Shown here: piece by piece, positions 4,235 through 62,578 of the stretch
How positions within the stretch are numbered: the first letter of the stretch is position 1
Layout of the letters: every line of letters starts with the position of its first letter
DNA from: Anaerolineae bacterium
GTDB lineage: Bacteria; Chloroflexota; Anaerolineae; Aggregatilineales; Aggregatilineaceae
Assembly: GCA_016926875.1 (NCBI GenBank)
Contig: JAFGNU010000040.1
Coordinates: 1-64,000 of the forward strand
Direction of reading: 5' to 3'
DNA length: 64,000 bases
Program-made: the position numbers and the translations under genes
Notes under the pieces: generated by a model
Seen by the model: only the letters and a program-made list of their open reading frames with translations
What the model was told of the DNA's origin: nothing
Databases searched by the model: none

Positions 4235-4273
4235 GTCGAAAGTTTAGTCTGAGTTAGCAAAGTAGCGCAAGTT

Positions 4274-4789
4274 TTACTCGCCCTGTTCAAAACGCATGAT
4301 CAACTGGTCGTTGGCGTCGTAGCTGGTATGGGCAAAAAACGGCGGTTCGCCGGGATCGCTGTCAAAGATCAGCGGGATCAACAACGGCAGGTCTTCGACC
4401 AGGGGCAGGGTGTGAACCCGGCAGCGCGGCACCCATTCGAGCACGCCTTCATCCGAGTCGAAAAAGGCACGCGAAGCCGCTTCGGCACGGAATACAAAGA
4501 CGATGATGCCGTTGTTTTGCCCGGCGTCAACGTGGATCGCGCCGCAAAAGCGTACATGCGACACGTCCAGGCCGGTTTCTTCCTGTATCTCGCGGATCGC
4601 GCCGGAAAGCGGGTCTTCATCGCGTTCAATATGCCCGCCGACACCGTTATAGCGACCCGGATAAACGCGCTTGTGCTGGCCGCGCTTGAGCAGCAGAATA
4701 TCGTCGCCGTACGTGATAAAGCACAGTGTGCGCGGGATAGCCAGCCAGCGCCCGGCGGTGGCATCTGCGCCCTGGTCTTTTGCACCCAT
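4274..4789 (-). CDS. NUDIX hydrolase (8-oxo-dGTP diphosphatase-like)
   Basis: Nudix box GGHIERDEDPLSGAIREIQEETGL. Confidence 0.85.
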   Translation of the reverse strand: MGAKDQGADATAGRWLAIPRTLCFITYGDDILLLKRGQHKRVYPGRYNGVGGHIERDEDPLSGAIREIQEETGLDVSHVRFCGAIHVDAGQNNGIIVFVFRAEAASRAFFDSDEGVLEWVPRCRVHTLPLVEDLPLLIPLIFDSDPGEPPFFAHTSYDANDQLIMRFEQGE

Positions 4790-4918
4790 CAGTTTTCTCC
4801 TTGCGGTACATACAGGCCGAATTATAGCATACGTTCACCCCCTCAATTCCGGGTTTGTGCGACGTGTAGCTCTGTTGTATGCTTTTAGTCGGCACCATTT
4901 GACAAGGAGAATAAAACA

Positions 4919-5566
4919 ATGGACGATCTGTATAGCCGTATCGTACATGACCGGGGATCGGTGCAAAACCTGTTTGCCAGGATACCCGGCTTTCGGGGTT
5001 ACATGGAGATGAGCGCACGGCGGCAGGCTGACCGGTTGATCCGTGAGTATGTTGCCGGGCAGTTGCAGCAGCAGCTTAACCGGATGCCTGTCGTTGAAAC
5101 AATGCTGCTGGATGCCGGCGGTCTGTCGTACATGAGCAAAACCCGGAGCGTCAAGACCAAGTTCCAAACGCTGGTGGATCGTGTCGCCACCGATATGCCC
5201 GGTTATTCAGGCTTTTTTGATGCGCTCAAGGTTGAAGATGATGATCTCGCAGTTGTGTATGCATTCGATGAGGCGATGCTGCGCTATGCGGACGAGTTCG
5301 GAAAGAAGCTGGACGCGCTGCAAAACGCCGCCATGATAAGCGCAGATGTTGATGAGGCCATCCGCGACCTGGACGCGCTGACGATAGAAGCCAGCCAGGC
5401 ATACAGCCTGCGCGAAGACGTGTTGAAAGGGATTGCCAGGGACGAACCGCCGGATATGCCGTTGGACACGCCGGAAAAATCGTTAACGACACTATTGGAT
5501 GAACCACCGGATATCAGCGAGGGACTCAGTGACGACGTGACCAGTGACGAAGAAGACATCGAATAG
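4919..5566 (+). CDS. hypothetical protein upstream of SPFH gene
   Basis: 215 aa ORF with RBS AAGGAGAATAAAACA before ATG; same leader style as the next gene. Confidence 0.75.
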   Translation: MDDLYSRIVHDRGSVQNLFARIPGFRGYMEMSARRQADRLIREYVAGQLQQQLNRMPVVETMLLDAGGLSYMSKTRSVKTKFQTLVDRVATDMPGYSGFFDALKVEDDDLAVVYAFDEAMLRYADEFGKKLDALQNAAMISADVDEAIRDLDALTIEASQAYSLREDVLKGIARDEPPDMPLDTPEKSLTTLLDEPPDISEGLSDDVTSDEEDIE

Positions 5567-5626
5567 GCATAGTGTGGAACGGCGTCGCTGCCGTTGTGAG
5601 TGGACATAGGGTAAGGAGAATAACCA

Positions 5627-6706
5627 ATGCCACGTATTATTGATGTTGTTGATCACGTTAACGTGATGGATGATGAGTTAGTCTACCGTGAACCCCAAAG
5701 GGGCGGCGGCGACTTCCGCATGGGGTCGCAGGTGATCGTGCAGGAAAGCCAGGCGGCAGTCTTTGTCCGGCAGGGGGAAGCGCTGGACGCACTGGGACCG
5801 GGAGCGCATACGCTCAGTACGGCCAACCTGCCAGTCCTATCGGGGTTATTAGGCTTTGTGACCAGCGGGCGCAACCCGTTCACGGTGGACCTGTATTTTG
5901 TGAATCTCAAGGACCTGCCGCAGGTGCCCTGGGGAACCAACCCTCCGATTGTGCTGGAAACGCCGGGCAAGGGTGTCGGCGTGGTGCTGTTGATCACGCA
6001 CGGTGTGATCGATATCGGTATCGACAACCCGAAGCTTTTTGTCAAGCAGTACGGTGTTGGCAAACCGATCCTGCGGCTGGGTGACATAAAAGACCGCATC
6101 CAGTCGATGCTGCTTGGTGAGGTGGCAACGCTGATTTCGTCGTCAGGCGCGGCGAGCATCATGGACGCCAACCGGTTGCTTACCGACCTGGAAGGCGCAG
6201 CGCTGGCGCGGCTGAACGATCAGTTCGCGCAGATCGGTATGCGGATCAAGGCGTTCGAAGCCAAGCCCTTCACGGCGAAAGATGTGTCTACCGAAGAACT
6301 GCGCAACTATGTTGACTTCGAAACGTGGGAGCGCATTCGCCGCCTGGAAGTGGCCGATACGGCGGCGGGCAATCCGGGCATGGGCGGCGGCCTGGCGAGC
6401 GCGGGCGTGGGCCTGGGCGTTGGACAGCAGATCGGTGCCACGATGAACCCCGAACAGGCAGCGCTCCAACAGCAGCAGCAAATGATGATGAACCAGATGA
6501 TGATGCAGATGATGCAGAATCAGCAAGGCGACCAGCAGGAGGAGCAGGCGCCAGCCGCGCCAGCCGTCCCGCAGACGCCGGACGAAATCCGCGTCTACCT
6601 GGATCAGCTTGATATGAAGCTGGCGTCGGGCGAGATTTCGGAAAGCGCGTATGAAAAGCTGTACGCCAAGTGGGAAGCACGCCTCAAAGAACTGGACGAG
6701 AAATAA
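5627..6706 (+). CDS. SPFH/band-7 domain protein with Met/Gln-rich segment and C-terminal short oligomerisation-like region
   Basis: 359 aa; RBS AAGGAG; 'FRMGSQVIVQESQAAVFVRQGEALDALGPGAHTLSTANLPVLSGLLG' typical of SPFH (virion-core-like) proteins. Confidence 0.8.
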   Translation: MPRIIDVVDHVNVMDDELVYREPQRGGGDFRMGSQVIVQESQAAVFVRQGEALDALGPGAHTLSTANLPVLSGLLGFVTSGRNPFTVDLYFVNLKDLPQVPWGTNPPIVLETPGKGVGVVLLITHGVIDIGIDNPKLFVKQYGVGKPILRLGDIKDRIQSMLLGEVATLISSSGAASIMDANRLLTDLEGAALARLNDQFAQIGMRIKAFEAKPFTAKDVSTEELRNYVDFETWERIRRLEVADTAAGNPGMGGGLASAGVGLGVGQQIGATMNPEQAALQQQQQMMMNQMMMQMMQNQQGDQQEEQAPAAPAVPQTPDEIRVYLDQLDMKLASGEISESAYEKLYAKWEARLKELDEK

Positions 6707-6731
6707 ACGATCCCTGATCAGGTCAAACAAG

Positions 6732-6757
6732 GCCCCGTTTGCAGCGCGGGGCTTTTT
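6732..6757 (+). terminator. intrinsic terminator after SPFH gene
   Basis: GCCCCG TTTGCAGCG CGGGGC TTTTT. Confidence 0.8.
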
Positions 6758-6769
6758 GTGTTGGGACGC

Positions 6770-8641
6770 TTACTCATCCAGCGGCCAGTGGATCGTCGTC
6801 AGCGTGAGACTGTCACCCAGGTCGGTCCCGCCGGACGTGGTGACGGGCAGGCGCGCGCCGGTCGCCGGATCATACAGCCCGACCTGGATCGTGTAGTCGC
6901 CGGGATCGAGTGGTATATCCGGGCTGGTCAGCAGGTGGTACGGATCGCGGATCAGGCTGCCGGGCTGCCATTCCAACGTGCTGGCGAAACCGTACAGCGG
7001 GCGGTGATCATCCTGGTCCCAGAGCGGACTGCCGGTCGCGGGGTGGGGCGCGCCGATCAGGTGGGCAAAGACGGTGTAATCAACGTCAGCCTGGGCCAGC
7101 GGTTCCCAGTAGAGCAGGATGGTGATCGCGCGGGTGGCGGCGTCTGGTCCCTGGATGGTACAGCCGCGCAGGCGGGCGATCTGGCCGATTGTGACCTGCG
7201 TTTGCACGCCGATTTCGTCCGGGGTAGGCTGCCAGCGGCGGTATTGGGCGATGGTGAAGCTCGAAAAGCCGTCGAAGCTAACGCGCTGCATGTGATCATC
7301 GAGAAAAGCTTCGGCATCCGGCGAGCGCCCGATCAGCCAGAGCGTTTGATAGCGCTGAACCTCCGGCGAAAGCTCGGCGGCGGCGTCCCCGCCATAGGTC
7401 AGGCTGCCCTCGGCGGCGCTGCCCTGGTAGTAGTAGTCAAAAGCCGGGTCGGCCAGCGTTTGTACGATCAGATCGCCGGGACGGGCGCGGCCTTCCAGGT
7501 ATGTTTTTAACGCGCGCCAGTCGGGCGACTTGGCGTTCTCGCCGCGATAGTAGTCAATCAGCGTTCCCGCGCCGAGCAGGGGTGTGATCAACAGCGCGAG
7601 CGGGATCAGGGCCAGGGCGCGGGGAGCACCCGCTCGCAGGGTCAGCGCAGGAGCCAGCGCGCGGGCCATCAACAGGAACAGCGCAGGTAGCACAGCGATC
7701 AGGTAGCGCGGACCAAACACGTTCATGCGCGTGGCGGCGACCAGCAGCAGCGCGGCGGGTACAACCATCCAGGCGATTAGCCAGCGCCGTGTGAATTTCT
7801 GCTCGCGTGCCTGCCCAATCAACAGGCCCAGCGCAACCAGCCCGCACCAGGCCAGCGGCGCGATGATATGCCAGGGCGCGTCCAGCTCATCACCGGTTAG
7901 CAGGATGGGCAAAAAGCGCGTGAGCAGTTGGGCGGGATCGGCCCCGCTCAGGGTGCCGGAGTAGCCGCTATGCGCCAGCCACCAGATTTGCACCAGCCAG
8001 GGGATCAGCAGCACGCCCAATACGCCCCACGCGATCAGCGCGCGGCGGCGCACGTCGGGCACGCGGCGCACCGCCAGCAGGTAGAGGACCTGCACGACAA
8101 CGATGAATCCTTCCAGAAAGAACGTGTAGGCGGCAGCCGCTTCGGCCAGGACGTACAGCGCCCAGTCACGCGGGCGGTTGCGGTTGGTGGCACGCAGAAA
8201 CAACCACATCGCCAGCGGGCTGATTCCCGCCCACAGCGCATAGTTGCGAACGTCCTGGGCGTGCCAGATCAGAAATGGATTGACCGCCCACAGCGCCGCT
8301 GCCAAACAGGCGATCCGGCGGTCGTAAAATAACCACCTGCTGAGCGCCGCCACCGCTGCCACGCCGACCAGGTTGCCGAGCAGGGGCAGGTAGCGCATGG
8401 CGAACTCGGAATCGCCCGCCGCGTGTTTCCACGCCCAGAAGCCAAAAAACGCCCCAAAAGGGTGCGGCTCCCAGTGCGCCAGGTCGGACACGACCTCAGG
8501 CGGCGAGTCCGCCCAATAGCGCACGGCAAAGGCTTCGTCACCGCGCAGGGGCACAGTGTCCAGGCGGTAAATTCGCAGCGCGAAGGCGAGTCCACACAGC
8601 AGCGCCAGCGTGACCGGCCAGTACAAGCGGGCGCGGTTCAT
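6770..8641 (-). CDS. GT39-type membrane glycosyltransferase (dolichyl-phosphate mannosyltransferase-like)
   Basis: Multi-TM protein, 'ALRIYRLDTVPLRGDEAFAVRYW' signature; internal Met chosen as start (MNRARLYW). Confidence 0.75.
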   Translation of the reverse strand: MNRARLYWPVTLALLCGLAFALRIYRLDTVPLRGDEAFAVRYWADSPPEVVSDLAHWEPHPFGAFFGFWAWKHAAGDSEFAMRYLPLLGNLVGVAAVAALSRWLFYDRRIACLAAALWAVNPFLIWHAQDVRNYALWAGISPLAMWLFLRATNRNRPRDWALYVLAEAAAAYTFFLEGFIVVVQVLYLLAVRRVPDVRRRALIAWGVLGVLLIPWLVQIWWLAHSGYSGTLSGADPAQLLTRFLPILLTGDELDAPWHIIAPLAWCGLVALGLLIGQAREQKFTRRWLIAWMVVPAALLLVAATRMNVFGPRYLIAVLPALFLLMARALAPALTLRAGAPRALALIPLALLITPLLGAGTLIDYYRGENAKSPDWRALKTYLEGRARPGDLIVQTLADPAFDYYYQGSAAEGSLTYGGDAAAELSPEVQRYQTLWLIGRSPDAEAFLDDHMQRVSFDGFSSFTIAQYRRWQPTPDEIGVQTQVTIGQIARLRGCTIQGPDAATRAITILLYWEPLAQADVDYTVFAHLIGAPHPATGSPLWDQDDHRPLYGFASTLEWQPGSLIRDPYHLLTSPDIPLDPGDYTIQVGLYDPATGARLPVTTSGGTDLGDSLTLTTIHWPLDE

Positions 8642-9747
8642 GCCTGGCTGTCGTCGGCCCCGGTATCCCCGCCCAGGGACAGCAGCCACGCCACGTCCTT
8701 TTTGCTCAGCCCGTACCAGTCTTTTTGCTTTTTGCGGGCGAACTTTCGCTCCAGGCGCGCGACGAACTTCTCCGGGTCACCGGTCGGGATGGTATGCAGC
8801 ACTTCAACCGGGAGCCGCGCGTCGGCCTGGGCTTCCGCCAGCGGTTCGTCTATCGATTCCCAGGCTGCGCCAATCTTGTAAAGCTGGCCGGACTGGAAAA
8901 TGTAGACAAGGCCGCCTTCGCCTGCGGCGGCTTCTTCTGATAGTTCAGCGGGTTCGGCTTCGACGGCGTCTGCTTCATCGTATTCGTACTCGTCTTCGTC
9001 ACCTGCATAGCTCATCGCTTCGAGTTCCTGGCGCGTGATCAGGCCGTACTTGCGGTCGATCTCGTCCATTTGCTCTACGGTCAATGTCTCGCGCCCTGCA
9101 TTCTGTTGATCGCGCAGGTAACCCTTGAGCGATGGTTTTTTCCTGGGGTCAGCGTAGAGCACCGGCAGCAGCGGGTCTTCGATCTCCACGCTGGCTTTGG
9201 GATTGATGAACACGACCAGCGGCTGCACCTCGATGTCGGAATTCGGGACGATTTTATTGACTAGGCCCTGCATTTCGCGGGTTTCGACGAGCGCATCACG
9301 GAACGGGTTGCCCAGCAAATCTTGACGCAGGTAGCCAAAGAGCAGGTGGGTGATGCCGCCGTCCCCGTACCACTTTTTTCCACTCACGCGGTACGACCGC
9401 TCCTGCCAGACGGTTGAGATGGTAAATATGCCTTCCGGGCCGATCAGGACGTGCTGTGCAGGCAGCAGGTAATGGAAGATCGTGTATTTGCTGCCAAAGC
9501 CTTTGAGAGCTTCGTTCAGGACATCCTCTGGACGCGGTTCGCGGATCCACAGGTTCGCCATGCGGACCGAGGCAATGGTCATCAGCAGCAAGATGGGCAG
9601 GATCATACAGCTAAACTGGCTGGATGAAGTCGGACTGGACCACGTATAAAAGAAGCCGAGACCCATCCCGCCCAGGCTGACGAAAAACAGGATGTGCGAA
9701 ATCTTGCGGTTTCGATTCACAAGCGCTTGATTGATAACAACGCGCAT
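8638..9747 (-). CDS. membrane protein with NERD-like domain and C-terminal T5orf172/GIY-YIG-like domain
   Basis: Start chosen at MRVVINQALVNRN (ATG at 9747) within the longer ORF; two TM helices; NERD-like 'QHVLIGPEGIFTISTVWQ'; C-term 'GLVYIFQSGQLYKIGAA...EKFVARLERKFARKKQKDWYGLSKKDVAWL'. Confidence 0.65.
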   Translation of the reverse strand: MRVVINQALVNRNRKISHILFFVSLGGMGLGFFYTWSSPTSSSQFSCMILPILLLMTIASVRMANLWIREPRPEDVLNEALKGFGSKYTIFHYLLPAQHVLIGPEGIFTISTVWQERSYRVSGKKWYGDGGITHLLFGYLRQDLLGNPFRDALVETREMQGLVNKIVPNSDIEVQPLVVFINPKASVEIEDPLLPVLYADPRKKPSLKGYLRDQQNAGRETLTVEQMDEIDRKYGLITRQELEAMSYAGDEDEYEYDEADAVEAEPAELSEEAAAGEGGLVYIFQSGQLYKIGAAWESIDEPLAEAQADARLPVEVLHTIPTGDPEKFVARLERKFARKKQKDWYGLSKKDVAWLLSLGGDTGADDSQA

Positions 9748-9988
9748 AGAGCCGGACCTTTCTGTGTGTTGGCTGTTGTACATTGGCTGGGGAAATACTA
9801 ACACATAATGACGAGAATATGTGAAAAAAGCTGCTCGGATTTCGCCGTCTCGGCTGGCAGCAGAGGAGCGGCGTGAAAGCGGAGGATAGACGCGGCTGGT
9901 TAAGTTGCCCGCTCCTGGTATAATTCGCTCCGCAACAGCGCCTGGACCGGATTCCCTTGTAACTCCCAGGCAAGACGGCGAAACAACT

Positions 9989-11395
9989 ATGCATAGCGTG
10001 AAACCATCCCAACAATGCCCCATCTGCGGGGCGGTGCACCCGCTCTCGGCCAGGGCGTGCTCGATCTGCGGGGCGGCACTGCCCGGCGAGCCAACGCCGG
10101 TTTCGCCCATGCCGCCGGTCAAAGGACGCGGGACGGGTGCGCGCCCGCTGTACGATCCGGCTGAAGGGGATGACGACCTGTATGCCGGTGATTTGTCCGG
10201 CAGCCTGTGGCGCCGCTTCCTGGTGATTGGCGTGATTGTAGGGATTGCGTTGGGTGTGGGGATCGGCCTGATCATCGGCCAGATCACGGGGAATGGCGAC
10301 GGCAGCGACAGCCGCGCCGAACTGCAAATAGGGACGCCGGGCGGCACGGCCAGCCCAGGAAGTCCTTCGACGGCTGCACAGCCTGCTTTTTCACCCACGC
10401 CGCAAGCGACCGCCTCGCCAACTATCGCGCTGGCAACAGTCACGCCCGCGCCGCCCACGCCGACCGATACACCCACGCCGGGACCGTGCATGCAAACGGC
10501 GCAGGAAGGCGATACGGTGTATGGTATGGCGATTCGCTGCGGGCACCAGGATATGTCGGTTGTGGATATGATCCTGGAAATGAACGGGATGGACAGCGCA
10601 GAACAGCTCCAGCTCGGCCAGACGCTAGAGATTCCCTGGCCAACGCCGACACCGGGCGGTGAGCCGCCGACCGAAGCCGCACCGGAAACCGGGAGTGACG
10701 GCGAAGGCGTCGAAACGTCGGCGCTTGATACCACGGTGATGATCAACGAGTTCGGCACGCCGGATGTGCTGGCGACGTACCAGTTGGCAGAGCCTACGCT
10801 GCGCCCCGGCCAGGCGTGGCATACGATCCAGGCAGGTGAAACAATTCTGAGCATAGCGGTCCAGTATGAAACGACGGTGGAAACGCTGTCGCAGATCAAC
10901 CCGGAAGTGCCATTTTTGCAGTGTGATTACGGCATGGCGAGCGGGGGGGCGAACTGCTCGGTGATGTTGTACGAAGGGCAGCGTTTGCGCGTGCCGGTGC
11001 CGCTGCCGACTGAGACGCCGACCCCGACGCCGGTTGGGACGCTCACGCCGACGCCGACCATCACGCCGACGTTTAATGCGCCGTACCTGACCCTGCCGGA
11101 AGACGGCGCGCACTTCAACGCGGACCAGATGGTCACGCTGCGCTGGGGCAGCACCGGGACGCTGGCCGAGAACGAGCGCTATATTGTGCGCGTGCGGGAC
11201 CTGGATACCGGCGAGGAGTATGTCGCTCCGGTTCAGGATACGATGTACGTGCTGCCGGGTGGGTGGCAGCCGGAAGACCGGGATCGCCACACGTTTGAAT
11301 GGACGATCTCCACCGGGATTGTGGACGACCAGTATAACATCTTGAATGAAGAACATTTCACCGACCCCCGGCGGTTTACCTGGGACAGTCGGTAG
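9989..11395 (+). CDS. zinc ribbon - TM - LysM repeat protein
   Basis: N-term CPICGAVHPLSARACSICGAAL, TM helix, TP-rich linkers, two LysM-like segments; ATG at 9989 in frame with ORF 9905..11395. Confidence 0.7.
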   Translation: MHSVKPSQQCPICGAVHPLSARACSICGAALPGEPTPVSPMPPVKGRGTGARPLYDPAEGDDDLYAGDLSGSLWRRFLVIGVIVGIALGVGIGLIIGQITGNGDGSDSRAELQIGTPGGTASPGSPSTAAQPAFSPTPQATASPTIALATVTPAPPTPTDTPTPGPCMQTAQEGDTVYGMAIRCGHQDMSVVDMILEMNGMDSAEQLQLGQTLEIPWPTPTPGGEPPTEAAPETGSDGEGVETSALDTTVMINEFGTPDVLATYQLAEPTLRPGQAWHTIQAGETILSIAVQYETTVETLSQINPEVPFLQCDYGMASGGANCSVMLYEGQRLRVPVPLPTETPTPTPVGTLTPTPTITPTFNAPYLTLPEDGAHFNADQMVTLRWGSTGTLAENERYIVRVRDLDTGEEYVAPVQDTMYVLPGGWQPEDRDRHTFEWTISTGIVDDQYNILNEEHFTDPRRFTWDSR

Positions 11396-11457
11396 TGAAC
11401 GCAGCGTTTGAGTTATTGGGGGGCGTGTACGGTCAAGGTAGCGAGAGGAAGTTGTGA

Positions 11458-12597
11458 ATGATACGCCGTGTGTGCTTGATTGTGCCGGTGATGTTGAGCC
11501 TGGTACTGCTGGGCGCGGCCTGTGGTGGCGAAACGGAAGACAAGCCGGATAAGCTGTCCCCGACGCCGCCGCCCGGCCCGGACAGTCTCAGCCCGACGGT
11601 TGTTCTGGCTGCTCCTACGCAAACGGCTGTTGGCCCAACGCTGACGCCGTCGCCTACCATCCCCCCGACGATCACACCAACCAACCCGCCACCGCCTGCC
11701 GCGCCGACCGATACGCCGCTGCCGACCGAGACACCAGGGCCGTATGAGCACGTGATCCAGGCGGGCGATACGTGTGTTAGCATCGCGTACCAGTACGGGC
11801 ATGTGCACCCGGATGTGGTTGGCGTGATCCGCACGCTGAACAACCTGCGTGACCCGTGTGTGCTGCCGGGGCCGGGCAGTTCGATCCTGGTGCCGCGCCC
11901 AACGGCCACCCCGACGGAAGTCGGCGCAGACCTGACGCAAACGGTGATAGCGACCAGCGCGCCGCCGATGATCGACCTGGGCACAGAGGAAACCTACGCC
12001 GTCCAGGTATACGCCGTGCAGGAGGGCGATACGCTGAGCAGCGTCGCTATCGACAACGACACGTCACTCAAGATGATCTGCGAGTTGAACCAGATTCCCG
12101 ACCAGAATCCCAACGGGATCGACTGCCGGGGCTGCACGTGGGAATCGGCGAACTGCTGCTGTCCAAACCCGCCGGTGCTGTCGGTGGGGCAGGAGCTGTT
12201 TGTGCCTGCGCCCACGCCGACACCCACCTACACACCTACTTTCAGCGGCAGCGAGACGCCAACCCCTACGCCCACGCACCGGGCGCCGCAGCCGGTGTAC
12301 CCGCCGGATGGCGCCAGCATCGCCGGGGCCGTGCGCCTGACATGGCTGACGGTTGGGCCGCTGGCAGACGATGAGTTTTACCTGGTGACGGTGCGCGAAG
12401 AAACAACCGGTGCAGCCTACAGCGCCGAAACACGCCAGTTGTCGCTGGATATACCGGATAACTACCTGCCGACCGACGGGCAGGCGCGTACGTTTATATG
12501 GCAGGTATCGGTTGTACGGGCGGGACAAGACGACCTGTTGTACCCGACCGGCGCGGTTGTGCCAGAACGCCGGTTCATCTGGCGCGGCTGGGAGTAG
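11458..12597 (+). CDS. LysM domain lipoprotein
   Basis: Lipobox LLGAACGG, TP-rich linker, LysM motifs 'HVIQAGDTCVSIAYQYG' and 'YAVQEGDTLSSVAIDND'. Confidence 0.75.
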   Translation: MIRRVCLIVPVMLSLVLLGAACGGETEDKPDKLSPTPPPGPDSLSPTVVLAAPTQTAVGPTLTPSPTIPPTITPTNPPPPAAPTDTPLPTETPGPYEHVIQAGDTCVSIAYQYGHVHPDVVGVIRTLNNLRDPCVLPGPGSSILVPRPTATPTEVGADLTQTVIATSAPPMIDLGTEETYAVQVYAVQEGDTLSSVAIDNDTSLKMICELNQIPDQNPNGIDCRGCTWESANCCCPNPPVLSVGQELFVPAPTPTPTYTPTFSGSETPTPTPTHRAPQPVYPPDGASIAGAVRLTWLTVGPLADDEFYLVTVREETTGAAYSAETRQLSLDIPDNYLPTDGQARTFIWQVSVVRAGQDDLLYPTGAVVPERRFIWRGWE

Positions 12598-12629
12598 GGG
12601 GAAGACATATTTCCTGCCAGACAAGACAA

Positions 12630-12659
12630 CGCCCCACCGGCAACCCGGCGGGGTGTTTT
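12630..12659 (+). terminator. intrinsic terminator
   Basis: CGCCCCACCGG CAAC CCGGCGGGGTG TTTT. Confidence 0.6.
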
Positions 12660-12689
12660 GATTCGATAGCGTGACGGGTGCGGATCGTG

Positions 12690-13043
12690 TTAGTCGCTTT
12701 TGGGAGTGGGCGTGACGCCGATCAGCGTGAAGTTGGAATCCTGGCCACGTTTGGGCACCATCACCGTGCCGCTTTTGTCTGCACAGTTCAGATCGCTGCC
12801 TGGACGACCGGCATACGTGACCTCGTAGCGATAGATGACCGCTGGCTCGATCTCCACCGTCAGCGTTCTACCCTCGCTGAGAGCCTGTTCTTCAACGGTG
12901 CCGGACTCGGTGTTGGTGATCTTGATCGTGGCGATGCCGCACTCGGTTTTGTTGGTGAACGTGAGCGTTGTCTCGTTGTCCTGGCACGCCGCCAGTAGCA
13001 GCGACACCACAAGTATGAGCAATAGGAACCAACGTCGCTTCAT
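12690..13043 (-). CDS. small lipoprotein
   Basis: 117 aa, signal peptide with lipobox LLLAACQD. Confidence 0.65.
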   Translation of the reverse strand: MKRRWFLLLILVVSLLLAACQDNETTLTFTNKTECGIATIKITNTESGTVEEQALSEGRTLTVEIEPAVIYRYEVTYAGRPGSDLNCADKSGTVMVPKRGQDSNFTLIGVTPTPKSD

Positions 13044-56335: not shown

Positions 56336-59143
56336 ATGTCTGGGTCTGACAGATTAATAGAGTCATTGATCGAAGCTGCCAGCAAGCTGCTGAAAAAACA
56401 CAAGCCGGAGGTATCGCTTGGTTACATTGTGGATGCCGTGGGCGAGTTGATCGGATGCGCCGATGTAGGCATCTGGCAGTTGGACAACGCCACACAAGAG
56501 CTTGAACTGAGCGCCAGCAGCGGCGGCTGGGTGTCACAGGAACGGCTGCCTGTTGGGCACGGTTTGGTTGGGGCGGTCATTTCCAGCCAAAAGCCGGTGG
56601 CCGTGACTGATGTCCAAAAAGGTTTTGGCGATAACCTGCCAGCACAGGGAAATTACCAGGCTGCGGTCGGGTTTCCGCTGATGTGGCAGGGTGAGTTGTA
56701 CGGCGTACTGGTAGCCATGGACAACCGGGCGGGGCATACCTTTGCCGGGCGGGACATTCAATTGATCGCATTGTTCGCGCAGCAGGCATCCGCCGTGCTT
56801 GCCACCGACCGGCTGGTAGCTCAAGTGGGCAGGCTTCAGCGCTCGTTGGTGGATGAGCAGGAGCGGCTGCTGCATATCCAGGTGGCTATCCGGCAGATGC
56901 TTGACCAGCCGGATATGCGCGCCAACCTGGCCGAAGTGACCGAGGCTGTACAGGCATTGGGCTGGCGGCGCGTAGTCCTGGTGCTGTATTCCAGGGATAT
57001 GACGGTCGAGCGGTTTTTTTCTGCTGGTTTATCGCCGCAGGAGGATCAGGCTCTACGACAGGGGCCAGTTGTTCCGCCGGAGGTGTGGCAGCGGTTCGTT
57101 GACGGGGAGCTGGAAGCATACCGCCTGAACGGCCTGTATTATGTGCCGCAGAGCAGTGCCAGCACCACATGGCATCCGGGCGGCCTGCTGTTTGCGCCGC
57201 TGCAATTGGGTCGTGGGCGCGTGGTTGGTGTGATTCGAGTAGATGACCCGGTGGATGTATCCCTTCCGACCGCCGAGTCGCTTCGCCCGCTGGATATTCT
57301 GGCAAGCCAGGCGGCATACGTAGTCGAGAACGCGCTCTTGCTGGAAGAAGCGTCTCGTTCTGCCGAAGCACTGGCGGAGCAGGTTGATGAATTGTCGATG
57401 ATCCACCGGGCGGACCGTGAGCTCAGCGCGCACCTGAACATGGACCGCGTGATGACGCTGACCATGGACTGGGCGCTGCGGCGTACCGGGGCTGATACAG
57501 GGTTGCTGGCATTGGTAACGCCGGATGGGCGTGGTCTGGTGCCGTTTATCACGATGGGCTACCTGGACCGGAAAATCCTGGACTGCACCGAGCAAAATCC
57601 CTGGCCGCTGGATGTCGGAATCATGGGTCTCGCCGTACGCACAGGCGAGATACAGCTTATAGATAATGTGAGTATAGAAGATGGCGGCGCAGAGATCATG
57701 CCTGGGGCACGCTCTAAGGTTGCGGTCCCGCTATCTATGCGCGGCGAGGTGTTGGGTGTGATCACGCTGGCTTCGAGCGAAAAGGGGGCATTCGACCGGC
57801 AAAACGCGAGCTTCCTGGAGCGGTTGGCACGCCGCGCTGCCGTGGCGCTGGACAACGCCCGGTTGTTTCGACAGTCTGAGCAACTGGCCGACGACATGGC
57901 GGTGCTGTATTCGGCCAGCCGGGCCATTACATCCACGCTGGAACGGGACGAGGTGTTACAGCGGATCGCCCAGTCGATGGCGGTGGCGCTTGAATGCTCA
58001 AGCGCCGTGATCTTCGGCTACAGGGAGGAGACACGCGAGGCGCAAGTGCTGGCGGCTTATAAAGTGGGCACCATCCGCGATGCTCATGAAAGCCTGCCTG
58101 AAGTCAAATCAGCAATCATGCTAGATGACTATCCCTCTGTGCGCGAGGCGGTGCAGCACCACCATTCACTTGCTTTGCGTGTGGTCGATCCGGATATAAG
58201 CGAGCCAGCGCGTATTTTTATGCTTGAGCGAGATATTCACGCGGCGATGCTGACACCGCTGGTTGCCCAGGAGGAATTAATTGGCATGGCGATGGCGATT
58301 GAGGGGCGGCGCGACCGCGTGTTTACGACGGAAGAGATGTTTAAAGCCGAAACGTTAGCCAGCCAGGCATCGGTCGCACTGCGCCAGTCGTTGTTGTACA
58401 GCGAAGTGCTTGACCTTGAAAAAGTCAAATCTGAGATGATCCGGATGGCTTCACACGACTTGCGCAACCCATTGAATAACATTATGGGATATGTCGAACT
58501 GCTCGCGATGAGTATGGATCAGTTTGGTATAACACCCGATCAAAACGAATATATCGCCAGCCTGCGGCGCAGCGCCAAAACGATGCAATCGTTAATTGAT
58601 GACCTGCTGACGCTGGAACGGGTGGAAAGCGAACGCGAGAGTGAATGGCAGGTGTTTGACCTGGGCGGGTTGGTGTACGAGGTAGTGGAGGCAGAGCGTT
58701 CGAGCGCCACGCTCAAACGTCAAGAGTTGGTCTTGGAACGCCCATCGGAGCCGTCGCCGGTATTCGGCAGCACCACCCAATTACGGCAGGCGGTGGCGAA
58801 CCTTGTCGGCAACGCGATCAAATATACACCCGACGAAGGCCGTGTCGAGGTAACGTTCACCCGCCAGAACGAGCGGTTGAGCCTGGTAGTTAAGGATAAC
58901 GGCTACGGGATTTCGGAAGAACGGCGAAAACGGATTTTCGAGCGCTTCTACCGCGCACACGAACCCGGCACGGATCATATCCCCGGCACCGGCCTGGGGC
59001 TGAGCCTGGTCAAGACCGTGATCGAACGACATGGTGGCGAAGTGTGGTTCGAAAGTGAAACGGGAAAGGGCAGTACGTTCACGTTCTGGGTGCCCGCTGC
59101 GAGTGATGAACCGAGAGCGTATGGCGATCAGCCCGGCGATTAG
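56336..59143 (+). CDS. multi-GAF sensor histidine kinase
   Basis: 935 aa; multiple GAF domains; 'MASHDLRNPLNNIMGYVELL', 'NLVGNAIKYTPDEG', 'GTGLGLSLVKTVIERHGG'. Confidence 0.9.
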   Translation: MSGSDRLIESLIEAASKLLKKHKPEVSLGYIVDAVGELIGCADVGIWQLDNATQELELSASSGGWVSQERLPVGHGLVGAVISSQKPVAVTDVQKGFGDNLPAQGNYQAAVGFPLMWQGELYGVLVAMDNRAGHTFAGRDIQLIALFAQQASAVLATDRLVAQVGRLQRSLVDEQERLLHIQVAIRQMLDQPDMRANLAEVTEAVQALGWRRVVLVLYSRDMTVERFFSAGLSPQEDQALRQGPVVPPEVWQRFVDGELEAYRLNGLYYVPQSSASTTWHPGGLLFAPLQLGRGRVVGVIRVDDPVDVSLPTAESLRPLDILASQAAYVVENALLLEEASRSAEALAEQVDELSMIHRADRELSAHLNMDRVMTLTMDWALRRTGADTGLLALVTPDGRGLVPFITMGYLDRKILDCTEQNPWPLDVGIMGLAVRTGEIQLIDNVSIEDGGAEIMPGARSKVAVPLSMRGEVLGVITLASSEKGAFDRQNASFLERLARRAAVALDNARLFRQSEQLADDMAVLYSASRAITSTLERDEVLQRIAQSMAVALECSSAVIFGYREETREAQVLAAYKVGTIRDAHESLPEVKSAIMLDDYPSVREAVQHHHSLALRVVDPDISEPARIFMLERDIHAAMLTPLVAQEELIGMAMAIEGRRDRVFTTEEMFKAETLASQASVALRQSLLYSEVLDLEKVKSEMIRMASHDLRNPLNNIMGYVELLAMSMDQFGITPDQNEYIASLRRSAKTMQSLIDDLLTLERVESERESEWQVFDLGGLVYEVVEAERSSATLKRQELVLERPSEPSPVFGSTTQLRQAVANLVGNAIKYTPDEGRVEVTFTRQNERLSLVVKDNGYGISEERRKRIFERFYRAHEPGTDHIPGTGLGLSLVKTVIERHGGEVWFESETGKGSTFTFWVPAASDEPRAYGDQPGD

Positions 59144-60281: not shown

Positions 60282-60650
60282 ATGACGGATGCTGAGCTGG
60301 TGATCATGATCATGAGCGGCCCAGACGACGGGCGAGAGATTCACCTGAGCCAGCAGCACGGCGACGGGTATGTGAGCGTGGATGGCACCTGGTCGCTCGT
60401 GTTTGGACGGCGTGAAGAATGTGATGTGTCTATCCCGTTTGATACCCAGGTATCCCGGCAACACGCCATGCTGCGCCTGATGCCAGATGGCGAGCTGTGG
60501 CTGGTGGATGCGGGAAGCCTGAATGGAACCTTTATCGACAAACGACGCGTGGAAAAGCCAACGCTGCTGGAACGCGGCGAATTGTTCCGGGTGGGCCGCA
60601 CATGGCTGCGTGTTCAACTTGATCCGGATGAATTTATGACGGACGAATGA
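60282..60650 (+). CDS. FHA domain protein
   Basis: 'LVFGRREECDVSIPFDTQVSRQHAMLRLMPDGELWLVDAGSLNGTFIDKRRV'. Confidence 0.93.
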   Translation: MTDAELVIMIMSGPDDGREIHLSQQHGDGYVSVDGTWSLVFGRREECDVSIPFDTQVSRQHAMLRLMPDGELWLVDAGSLNGTFIDKRRVEKPTLLERGELFRVGRTWLRVQLDPDEFMTDE

Positions 60651-62578
60651 CGGTGGAAACAATCGGATTGCAGGATATTCAAACCCTGGCGCGGCAGGAA
60701 ACCGCCAAGCTGCATCACTTCTATATCGGGGTTGAGCATTTGTTTATTGCCCTGACGCAGCTCAAAGGCGGGTTGACGGTGGCCGTGCTGGAGTATCACG
60801 GGCTGTCACCCCGGTTCATTCGCTACAGCATCCGCGAGAGCGTGGGGCGGTACGAAGACCGTCGCTATTGGCCGGGCTTTCCTGAAACGCCGCGTGCTGT
60901 GAAGGTGCTGAACATGGCGCAGCATTACGCCGGGACTCAATCGCCATCCGAACGCGATCTGCTGTTGGCGATCCTGGATGAGAGCGACAGTGTCGTAAGC
61001 CGTGTGCTGCATGAGATGGGCGTCAATGCCGCAGAACTGCGCCGTACCGCAGCCAACTGGGCCGAACCCCTGCGCCCCCAACCGCCCGAAGTGCCGATTC
61101 ACGGCGATGTGGTGCTGGACGACGAGCAGCAGCGCGTGTTGCAGTTGATGTTCCGGGACTACGCGGAAGTGCACGTTGTACGCGAGTTCGCCGGTGGGTA
61201 CAGTGGGGCGCGCGTGCTGCTGGCGCGGCCTGTGCGTGTAGATGGGCACAAAGACGCGCCGGTAGTCGTGAAGCTGGCAGACCGCTACTCGGTGCTGTAC
61301 GAGCGGCGGCGCTATGATTTACACGTCAAGGGCACGCTGCCGACGACAACCGCGCGTCTGGTGGATGCGCCGGTCGTGCCGGACGAGTCAGCAGTCGGCG
61401 GGTTGAAGTATACGTTCGTCGGGCGGCTGGACGATACCGACCCGGTGAATCTGCGCGAATTTGCATCACGCGCTGATCCGCAAAAGCTGAGCGATTTGAT
61501 TCGCGGGCTGTTTGAGATGTTTGGTCCGGCATGGTGGTTGCAGCGAAAACCGTACCGCTTTGGCATATGGCGCGAGTACGAGCATGTGCTGCCCCCGGCG
61601 CTGGTCATCGAAGCGCTGCTGGATGGGACAGAGGCCACCGTGTCACACAGACTCCAGCCGCTGGGGGTGTGGAGCCGGACCAGCCGCGTGATGCCGGGCG
61701 AAGTCGTGGTGCTGGATGGGTTCGCCGTCCAGAAAGTAAACACCGAGCATGATGTGCTGCACCTGGCAGCGGGCGCACAGCCGGAAGCGATCAACCGGGC
61801 GAGCAAAGTCGAGGTGCGCGGCCTGGGCGTCAGCGAGAAGACGTATTTCCGGGGCGAAACGGTTGGGCGCCTGGTGGGACGCGTCGTGCGTACGCGCGAT
61901 GATCTGCTGATGCGCGCCGTTCAAGACCTGGAGCCAAATTTCGACCTGCGGCTGCAACAGATTCCGTCAGAGCATGATACAGTTGGCGATCTGCCGAATC
62001 CGTTGTTCAGGATTACCGAACTGCTCGACCGGCAGGCAAGCGGCTACCTGTCCACCATTCACGGCGATCTGCATCTGGGCAATATCCTGGTGGGACCGCG
62101 CGGCGATGCGTGGCTGATCGACTTTGGGTGGACGCGAGAAGGGCACACACTGTTTGACTGGGCGCTGTTGGAGGCGAGCCTGCTGTTTGAAGTGGTGGCG
62201 CATCTTGCCCCACCAGGCTGGGAAGGCGTGTGGGGTACGGTGGCGCTGCTGGATTCAATCAACCGGGGCGAAGACCGGGTGCTTCGTGAGCGGCACCAGG
62301 TCGCGCGTATGCTGACCATCATCCCGACGATCCGCGACGTCGTCCGCGAGTGCCTGGGGGTGCCGGAGCGCTGGGACGAGTACTATATTGCGCTGGCGCT
62401 GCTGTCCTTGCGCCTGATGAGTTGGCAGTCCGAAGGGGTCGATGCGCGGCGGTTAGCATTTTTGGTGTCGGCGCTGTCGATTGCGGCGGCCCAGTCACCC
62501 CCGCAGACCGGCGGCGACAAGCCCTGGACAGATGTCACAACCGATCTGGATCAAACCGAACTGCGCGTTGATGACTGA
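60647..62578 (+). CDS. Clp N-terminal (Clp_N/R) domain fused to aminoglycoside-phosphotransferase-like (TCAD9-like) kinase domain
   Basis: N-term 'LARQETAKLHHFYIGVEHLFIALTQLKGGLTVAVLEYHG...SERDLLLAILDESDSVVSRVLHEMGVN'; C-term 'EFAGGYSGARVLLARPV...VVVKLAD', 'IHGDLHLGNILVGPRGDAWLIDFGWT'; ATGA overlap with FHA stop. Confidence 0.8.
   Translation: MTVETIGLQDIQTLARQETAKLHHFYIGVEHLFIALTQLKGGLTVAVLEYHGLSPRFIRYSIRESVGRYEDRRYWPGFPETPRAVKVLNMAQHYAGTQSPSERDLLLAILDESDSVVSRVLHEMGVNAAELRRTAANWAEPLRPQPPEVPIHGDVVLDDEQQRVLQLMFRDYAEVHVVREFAGGYSGARVLLARPVRVDGHKDAPVVVKLADRYSVLYERRRYDLHVKGTLPTTTARLVDAPVVPDESAVGGLKYTFVGRLDDTDPVNLREFASRADPQKLSDLIRGLFEMFGPAWWLQRKPYRFGIWREYEHVLPPALVIEALLDGTEATVSHRLQPLGVWSRTSRVMPGEVVVLDGFAVQKVNTEHDVLHLAAGAQPEAINRASKVEVRGLGVSEKTYFRGETVGRLVGRVVRTRDDLLMRAVQDLEPNFDLRLQQIPSEHDTVGDLPNPLFRITELLDRQASGYLSTIHGDLHLGNILVGPRGDAWLIDFGWTREGHTLFDWALLEASLLFEVVAHLAPPGWEGVWGTVALLDSINRGEDRVLRERHQVARMLTIIPTIRDVVRECLGVPERWDEYYIALALLSLRLMSWQSEGVDARRLAFLVSALSIAAAQSPPQTGGDKPWTDVTTDLDQTELRVDD

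Follow-up and report, generated by a model that had tools for sequence, protein, structure and literature searches.

Phosphoarginine is the one phosphorylation mark that the ClpC protease is known to recognize. The marks are made by McsB and read by the ClpC N-domain, in which residues E32 and E106 have roles in the phosphoarginine pockets (PMC12583610). A threonine phosphorylation pathway that combines a kinase (PpkA), an FHA protein (Fha), and a Clp_N-bearing ATPase (ClpV) is known from the T6SS, where phosphorylation by PpkA is read by Fha (PMC3953482). Mycobacterial ClpC2, which protects mycobacteria from cyclomarin (PMC10030653), has a ClpC-type N-domain without an unfoldase. The kinase domain TCAD9 (PF19974) takes its name from NTP-dependent ternary conflict systems and has been linked to vWA-MoxR-VMAP (PMC10910872).

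The locus described here pairs a gene for a small FHA protein (P0001) with a gene for a fusion of Clp_N to TCAD9 (P0002). The kinase domain of P0002 clearly belongs to the same family as that of the TCAD9 conflict systems; however, the host copy differs from these in being fused to Clp_N, FHA-paired, vertically inherited, and nearly always single-copy. Phosphoarginine proteolysis by ClpC-McsB is similar in that a phosphorylation mark is tied to a ClpC N-domain, and the glutamate equivalent to E32 is invariant in the fusion. In contrast to ClpC-McsB, the host kinase is APH-like and not a guanido kinase, the protein contains no unfoldase, the FHA protein is the proposed reader, and only one of the two pocket glutamates is retained, E106 not being conserved. 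The T6SS pathway has the same combination of Clp_N, kinase, and FHA and resembles above all a ClpC-Ser/Thr kinase-FHA operon of the host order (see below). However, PpkA is a Hanks-type kinase, and no secretion context was seen at the host locus; P0001 matched TagH with 29 bits, against a cut-off of 120 bits. ClpC2 likewise differs from the fusion, as it has no kinase domain and no FHA partner reported in the literature searched. Clp_N is also shared with the ClpC, ClpA, and ClpB unfoldases, whose AAA+ modules are absent from the fusion. No description of a Clp_N-kinase fusion or of a ClpC-FHA-kinase operon was found in the literature searched.

Organization of the FHA-fusion locus

The pair lies on the forward strand of the window (the whole 64,000-nucleotide stretch of DNA that was analyzed), which belongs to a 3.75-Mb assembly. 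The upstream gene (positions 60282 to 60650; ATG at 60282, stop at 60650) encodes P0001, a protein of 122 amino acids (aa) with an FHA domain (Pfam FHA, E = 1.1e-16) in which the phosphothreonine-binding residues G42, R43, S58, R59, H61, S79, and N81 are present. These residues of the GR, SRxH, and SxNG motifs (G, R, S, R, H, S, and N) are identical in 38 of 38 FHA proteins encoded upstream of fusion genes, while the glycine following SxN is kept in 37 and replaced by lysine in one. The stop of the FHA gene overlaps the start of the fusion gene in an ATGA (60647 to 60650, forward strand), an overlap that an earlier note, made from the sequence alone, had placed correctly to the base.

Of 51 fusion loci, 39 have an FHA gene upstream of the fusion gene and in the same orientation, and the spacing between the two falls between -10 and +30 bases in 34 of these 39. 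The exact ATGA overlap (gap of -4) occurs in only 3 of the paired loci, with spacings of +3 to +9 being commoner. It is the tight codirectional adjacency of the two genes that is conserved, and not the exact 4-base overlap. No FHA gene was found upstream in the other 12 loci, which include four host-family genomes. Miscalled open reading frames were considered as the cause and rejected, since three-frame translation of the upstream DNA revealed no FHA domain either. The absence of an FHA gene next to the fusion in these loci implies that the FHA protein is dispensable or replaceable there.

The neighbors scanned in the window with Pfam comprise a histidine kinase, a GHMP kinase, and an L,D-transpeptidase. 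The histidine kinase (935 aa, with approximately four GAF domains; 56336 to 59143) lies just upstream of the pair, and a homologue occupies the same place in several genomes of the host family.

Domains and conserved residues of the fusion protein

The second gene (60647 to 62578, forward strand; ATG at 60647 inside the ATGA, stop at 62578) encodes P0002, a 643-aa protein. Residues 1 to 140 (60647 to 61066, forward strand) form a Clp_N region of two repeats, identified by Pfam (E = 2.6e-11; 43.9 bits against a cut-off of 20.7, in two stretches) and by alignment to PDB entries 2y1r/5hbn. The best PDB sequence matches of P0002 are likewise ClpC N-domains, with E values of approximately 3e-10 for the single sequence and 2e-20 for a profile. 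No AAA family was matched in Pfam. Residues 174 to 591 (61166 to 62419, forward strand) form the APH-like TCAD9 kinase domain (PF19974, E = 2.2e-37; 129.7 bits against a curated cut-off of 40), with a match that covers profile positions 2 to 428 of 429, and a genome search gave the same span. A Pfam APH match (E = 7.2e-08) was also obtained, and profile comparison with PDB gave weak APH and protein kinase matches at the catalytic loop. The domain architecture read in the earlier note, namely, a ClpA/B/C-type N-domain without an AAA+ module combined with an APH- or protein kinase-like domain, and a C-terminal half of the protein that resembles TCAD9, is borne out by family profiles.

The residues on which kinase activity would depend are intact. 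The predicted ATP-binding lysine K209 (61271 to 61273, forward strand; role assigned by homology to the kinase fold), E219, the residues H472, D474, and N479 of the catalytic loop HGDLHLGN (62060 to 62083, forward strand), and D492 of the metal-binding motif LIDFG (62114 to 62128, forward strand) are invariant in 49 of 49 full-length relatives, while the glycine of the latter motif varies (A, G, or E). Within Clp_N, the residues G28, E30, H31, and R83 are invariant in the same 49 proteins. In the alignment to 2y1r/5hbn, E30 corresponds to E32 of Bacillus subtilis ClpC in phosphoarginine pocket 1. The residue aligned with E106 in pocket 2 is R103, and this position is an arginine in 41 of the 49 relatives. 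An AlphaFold model of the fusion, built from a shallow 3-sequence alignment, had a mean pLDDT of 39, too low for use. Judging by their conserved residues, both the FHA protein and the fusion look functional.

Distribution and inheritance

Among 151 sampled genomes of the host order, 88 encode the full-length fusion, nearly always in one copy per genome; within the host family, 13 of 18 genomes have it. Together with the frequency of the upstream FHA gene, this makes the association of the two genes more than chance. No further full-length fusion was found outside the host order in the wider class and phylum samples, with the cross-phylum distribution sampled by one peptide-pattern scan. Five genomes of the host family, which form genus g12, have kept the ClpC N-domain and lack the fusion, and in family f6 the fusion is present without the operon-type ClpC described below.

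In families f1, f2, and f8, the fusion locus lies near thrB, which encodes homoserine kinase, and the groupings in the Clp_N tree and among the FHA proteins match the families. Synteny and trees indicate that the FHA-fusion pair is an old, vertically inherited pair of one order. In contrast to the patchy vWA-MoxR-VMAP ternary system, the pattern is order-wide, syntenic, near-single-copy, and family following, which argues for an inherited cellular module and not a mobile conflict cassette. No VMAP, MoxR, vWA, or EAD partner was recognized among the recurring neighbor clusters, as read from sequence, of the 51 loci. Likewise, no relatives of the pair were found among the viral contigs and plasmids searched, and PADLOC returned only weak local matches (E of 0.015 and above). 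We do not regard the flanking genes for threonine, leucine, and methionine biosynthesis as partners, since most of them lie on the opposite strand and they vary from family to family.

Outside the host order, TCAD9 has a patchy distribution within the class and is found together with EAD7, with Hanks-type kinases, or without any other recognized domain. At two loci (L148, positions 6604 to 11094, and L149, positions 6986 to 9742), TCAD9 is fused behind a Hanks-type Ser/Thr kinase, giving two kinase-type domains in tandem within one protein.

A paralogous ClpC-kinase-FHA operon

The closest FHA and the closest Clp_N paralogues in the host genome (G000) share one operon, located on another contig (C94; L187, positions 4259 to 11270). 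This operon encodes a ClpC-like ATPase (807 aa) containing a Clp_N domain and two AAA+ modules, a Ser/Thr kinase (1,346 aa) with a Pkinase domain and many TPRs, and an FHA protein (120 aa). The operon FHA protein, which is 50% identical, is the only other FHA match in the host genome at an E value of ≤1e-9, and the operon ClpC (46%) is the only other Clp_N match to P0002 at an E value of ≤1e-8. The operon holds the same three functions as the fusion pair but differs from it in that a complete ClpC ATPase and a kinase of the Hanks type stand in place of the Clp_N-TCAD9 fusion. ClpP is present in the host genome.

The operon is spread across families of the host order, and 21 of the 28 loci examined have the ClpC, kinase, and FHA genes directly one after another; in the others, the FHA or kinase gene is missing or the stretch ends within the locus. 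In the Clp_N tree, a branch with support of 98/93 sets the fusion group, the operon ClpCs, and the Clp_N of genome G584 (see below) apart from other ClpC and ClpB N-domains. In the FHA tree, the operon FHA proteins form one group, placed among the fusion-linked FHA proteins. Of the genomes tested, 18 of 20 that carry the fusion also have the operon Clp_N, as do 4 of 18 that lack the fusion (Fisher P = 4e-5, or P = 0.001 when the five g12 genomes are added, both uncorrected for shared descent).

A third arrangement was found in the distant genome G584, which belongs to another class of the same phylum. There, an FHA-winged-helix regulator, a Clp_N protein (180 aa), an FHA protein, a Ser/Thr kinase, proteins of unknown function, and an Hsp70 (830 aa) are encoded in a row (L147, positions 5114 to 12725), with Clp_N as a separate, standalone gene. 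Of 119 genomes sampled in this class, only G584 showed this Clp_N. The recurrence of the same three functions in three arrangements (fusion pair, operon, and G584) speaks for joint action of Clp_N, FHA, and kinase.

Possible function and alternative explanations

The earlier note had suggested either a phospho-signaling or proteostasis module or a conflict module. The outcomes that it named as refuting its reading (no Clp_N homology, or a kinase domain devoid of catalytic residues and no conserved FHA pairing) were not observed. The former reading gains further support from the finding that the nearest Clp_N and FHA paralogues share a ClpC-kinase-FHA operon, while the conflict half of the suggestion found no support for the host copy. 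We consider the chances about even that the two genes form one vertically inherited phospho-signaling module that acts on ClpC-type protein quality control. In such a module, Clp_N would dock the kinase on clients or adaptors, or on another surface, also used by the ClpC-type unfoldases of the host, and the APH-fold TCAD9 domain, with its intact catalytic residues, would phosphorylate the docked protein or itself. The small FHA protein may then bind the resulting phosphothreonine and gate the outcome, which could be either delivery to ClpC or withholding from it. The fusion pair would run parallel to the ClpC-Ser/Thr kinase-TPR-FHA operon of the same bacteria. Precedents for such a scheme are the phosphoarginine marks of McsB that ClpC reads (PMC12583610) and the PpkA-Fha pathway of the T6SS (PMC3953482). 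Against this reading stand the FHA-less loci, the breaks in the co-occurrence of ClpC and fusion in g12 and f6, and the replacement of E106.

APH-fold kinases are mostly small-molecule kinases. P0002 could accordingly be an antibiotic, amino acid, or sugar phosphotransferase, with Clp_N controlling only its stability or location. The Pfam APH match is in keeping with this, as is the presence of homoserine kinase and, in f2, also of threonine, leucine, and sulfur amino acid genes (named from sequence) in the flanks. However, the strand and family differences of these flanking genes, already noted, do not favor it, and the conserved FHA pairing and the paralogous operon point to protein signaling, so that we regard a small-molecule kinase as unlikely. 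A small-molecule reading was suggested by Kaur et al. for the APH domains that they observed (PMC7159879). Another explanation is that Clp_N, lacking an unfoldase and retaining the invariant pocket 1 glutamate, mainly soaks up N-domain ligands such as phosphoarginine proteins or toxic peptides, the kinase activity being secondary. Mycobacterial ClpC2 provides a parallel for such a decoy (PMC10030653), as does the standalone Clp_N in G584. However, the invariant kinase residues and the conserved FHA protein would then need another explanation, and E106 has been lost, which makes a decoy quite improbable. No McsB-type arginine kinase (PF00217, NF002194) was matched in the host family, and the control genomes gave none either.

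A conflict effector, in which TCAD9 would act as in the NTP-dependent ternary systems and be triggered on infection, is what the origin of the domain name would suggest, and the patchy TCAD9 proteins elsewhere in the class indeed have the effector-associated domain EAD7 or a Ser/Thr kinase as fusion partner. It is this difference in distribution and fusion partners that leaves the conflict reading unsupported for the host copy, which has no EAD domain and is single, syntenic, and vertically inherited, with no convincing PADLOC match and no viral or plasmid relative in the searched sets. Moreover, the neighbors scanned in the window (a histidine kinase, a GHMP kinase, and an L,D-transpeptidase) speak against a conflict effector. 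Of the rival explanations, this one fits the host copy least, and its probability appears to be small. The pair does not look like a defense weapon but like a so far undescribed switch through which phosphorylation would act on protein quality control.

A ClpC-type N-domain, a kinase, and a phosphothreonine reader come together at two loci in the host order; the operon includes the unfoldase, and in the fusion a kinase takes the unfoldase's place. If this link is functional, phospho-controlled proteolysis would extend to Ser/Thr marks, and a kinase domain of conflict systems would have been turned into a standing cellular regulator. A more far-reaching scheme, which we advance only tentatively and consider rather doubtful, is Ser/Thr phosphorylation-directed Clp proteolysis, in which kinases (the TCAD9 domain of the fusion and the kinase of the ClpC operon) would tag proteins, FHA proteins would recognize the phosphothreonine, and ClpC would degrade or spare the targets. 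If true, such a branch, the phosphothreonine equivalent of the McsB-phosphoarginine-ClpC pathway, would be fixed across much of one bacterial order.

Other genes with Clp_N repeats

Two further genes with Clp_N-type repeats were observed. In genome G007, an open-ended reading frame of at least 302 aa (L056, positions 5847 to 6752) has Clp_N-like repeats, and no AAA+ module was seen up to the end of the contig. In the host genome, a gene on contig C93 (L057, positions 1411 to 2790) appears, on reading its sequence, to join Clp_N repeats to a site-2-protease-type membrane metalloprotease with an HEFAH motif, and it adjoins apparent SUF-like sulfur assembly genes.
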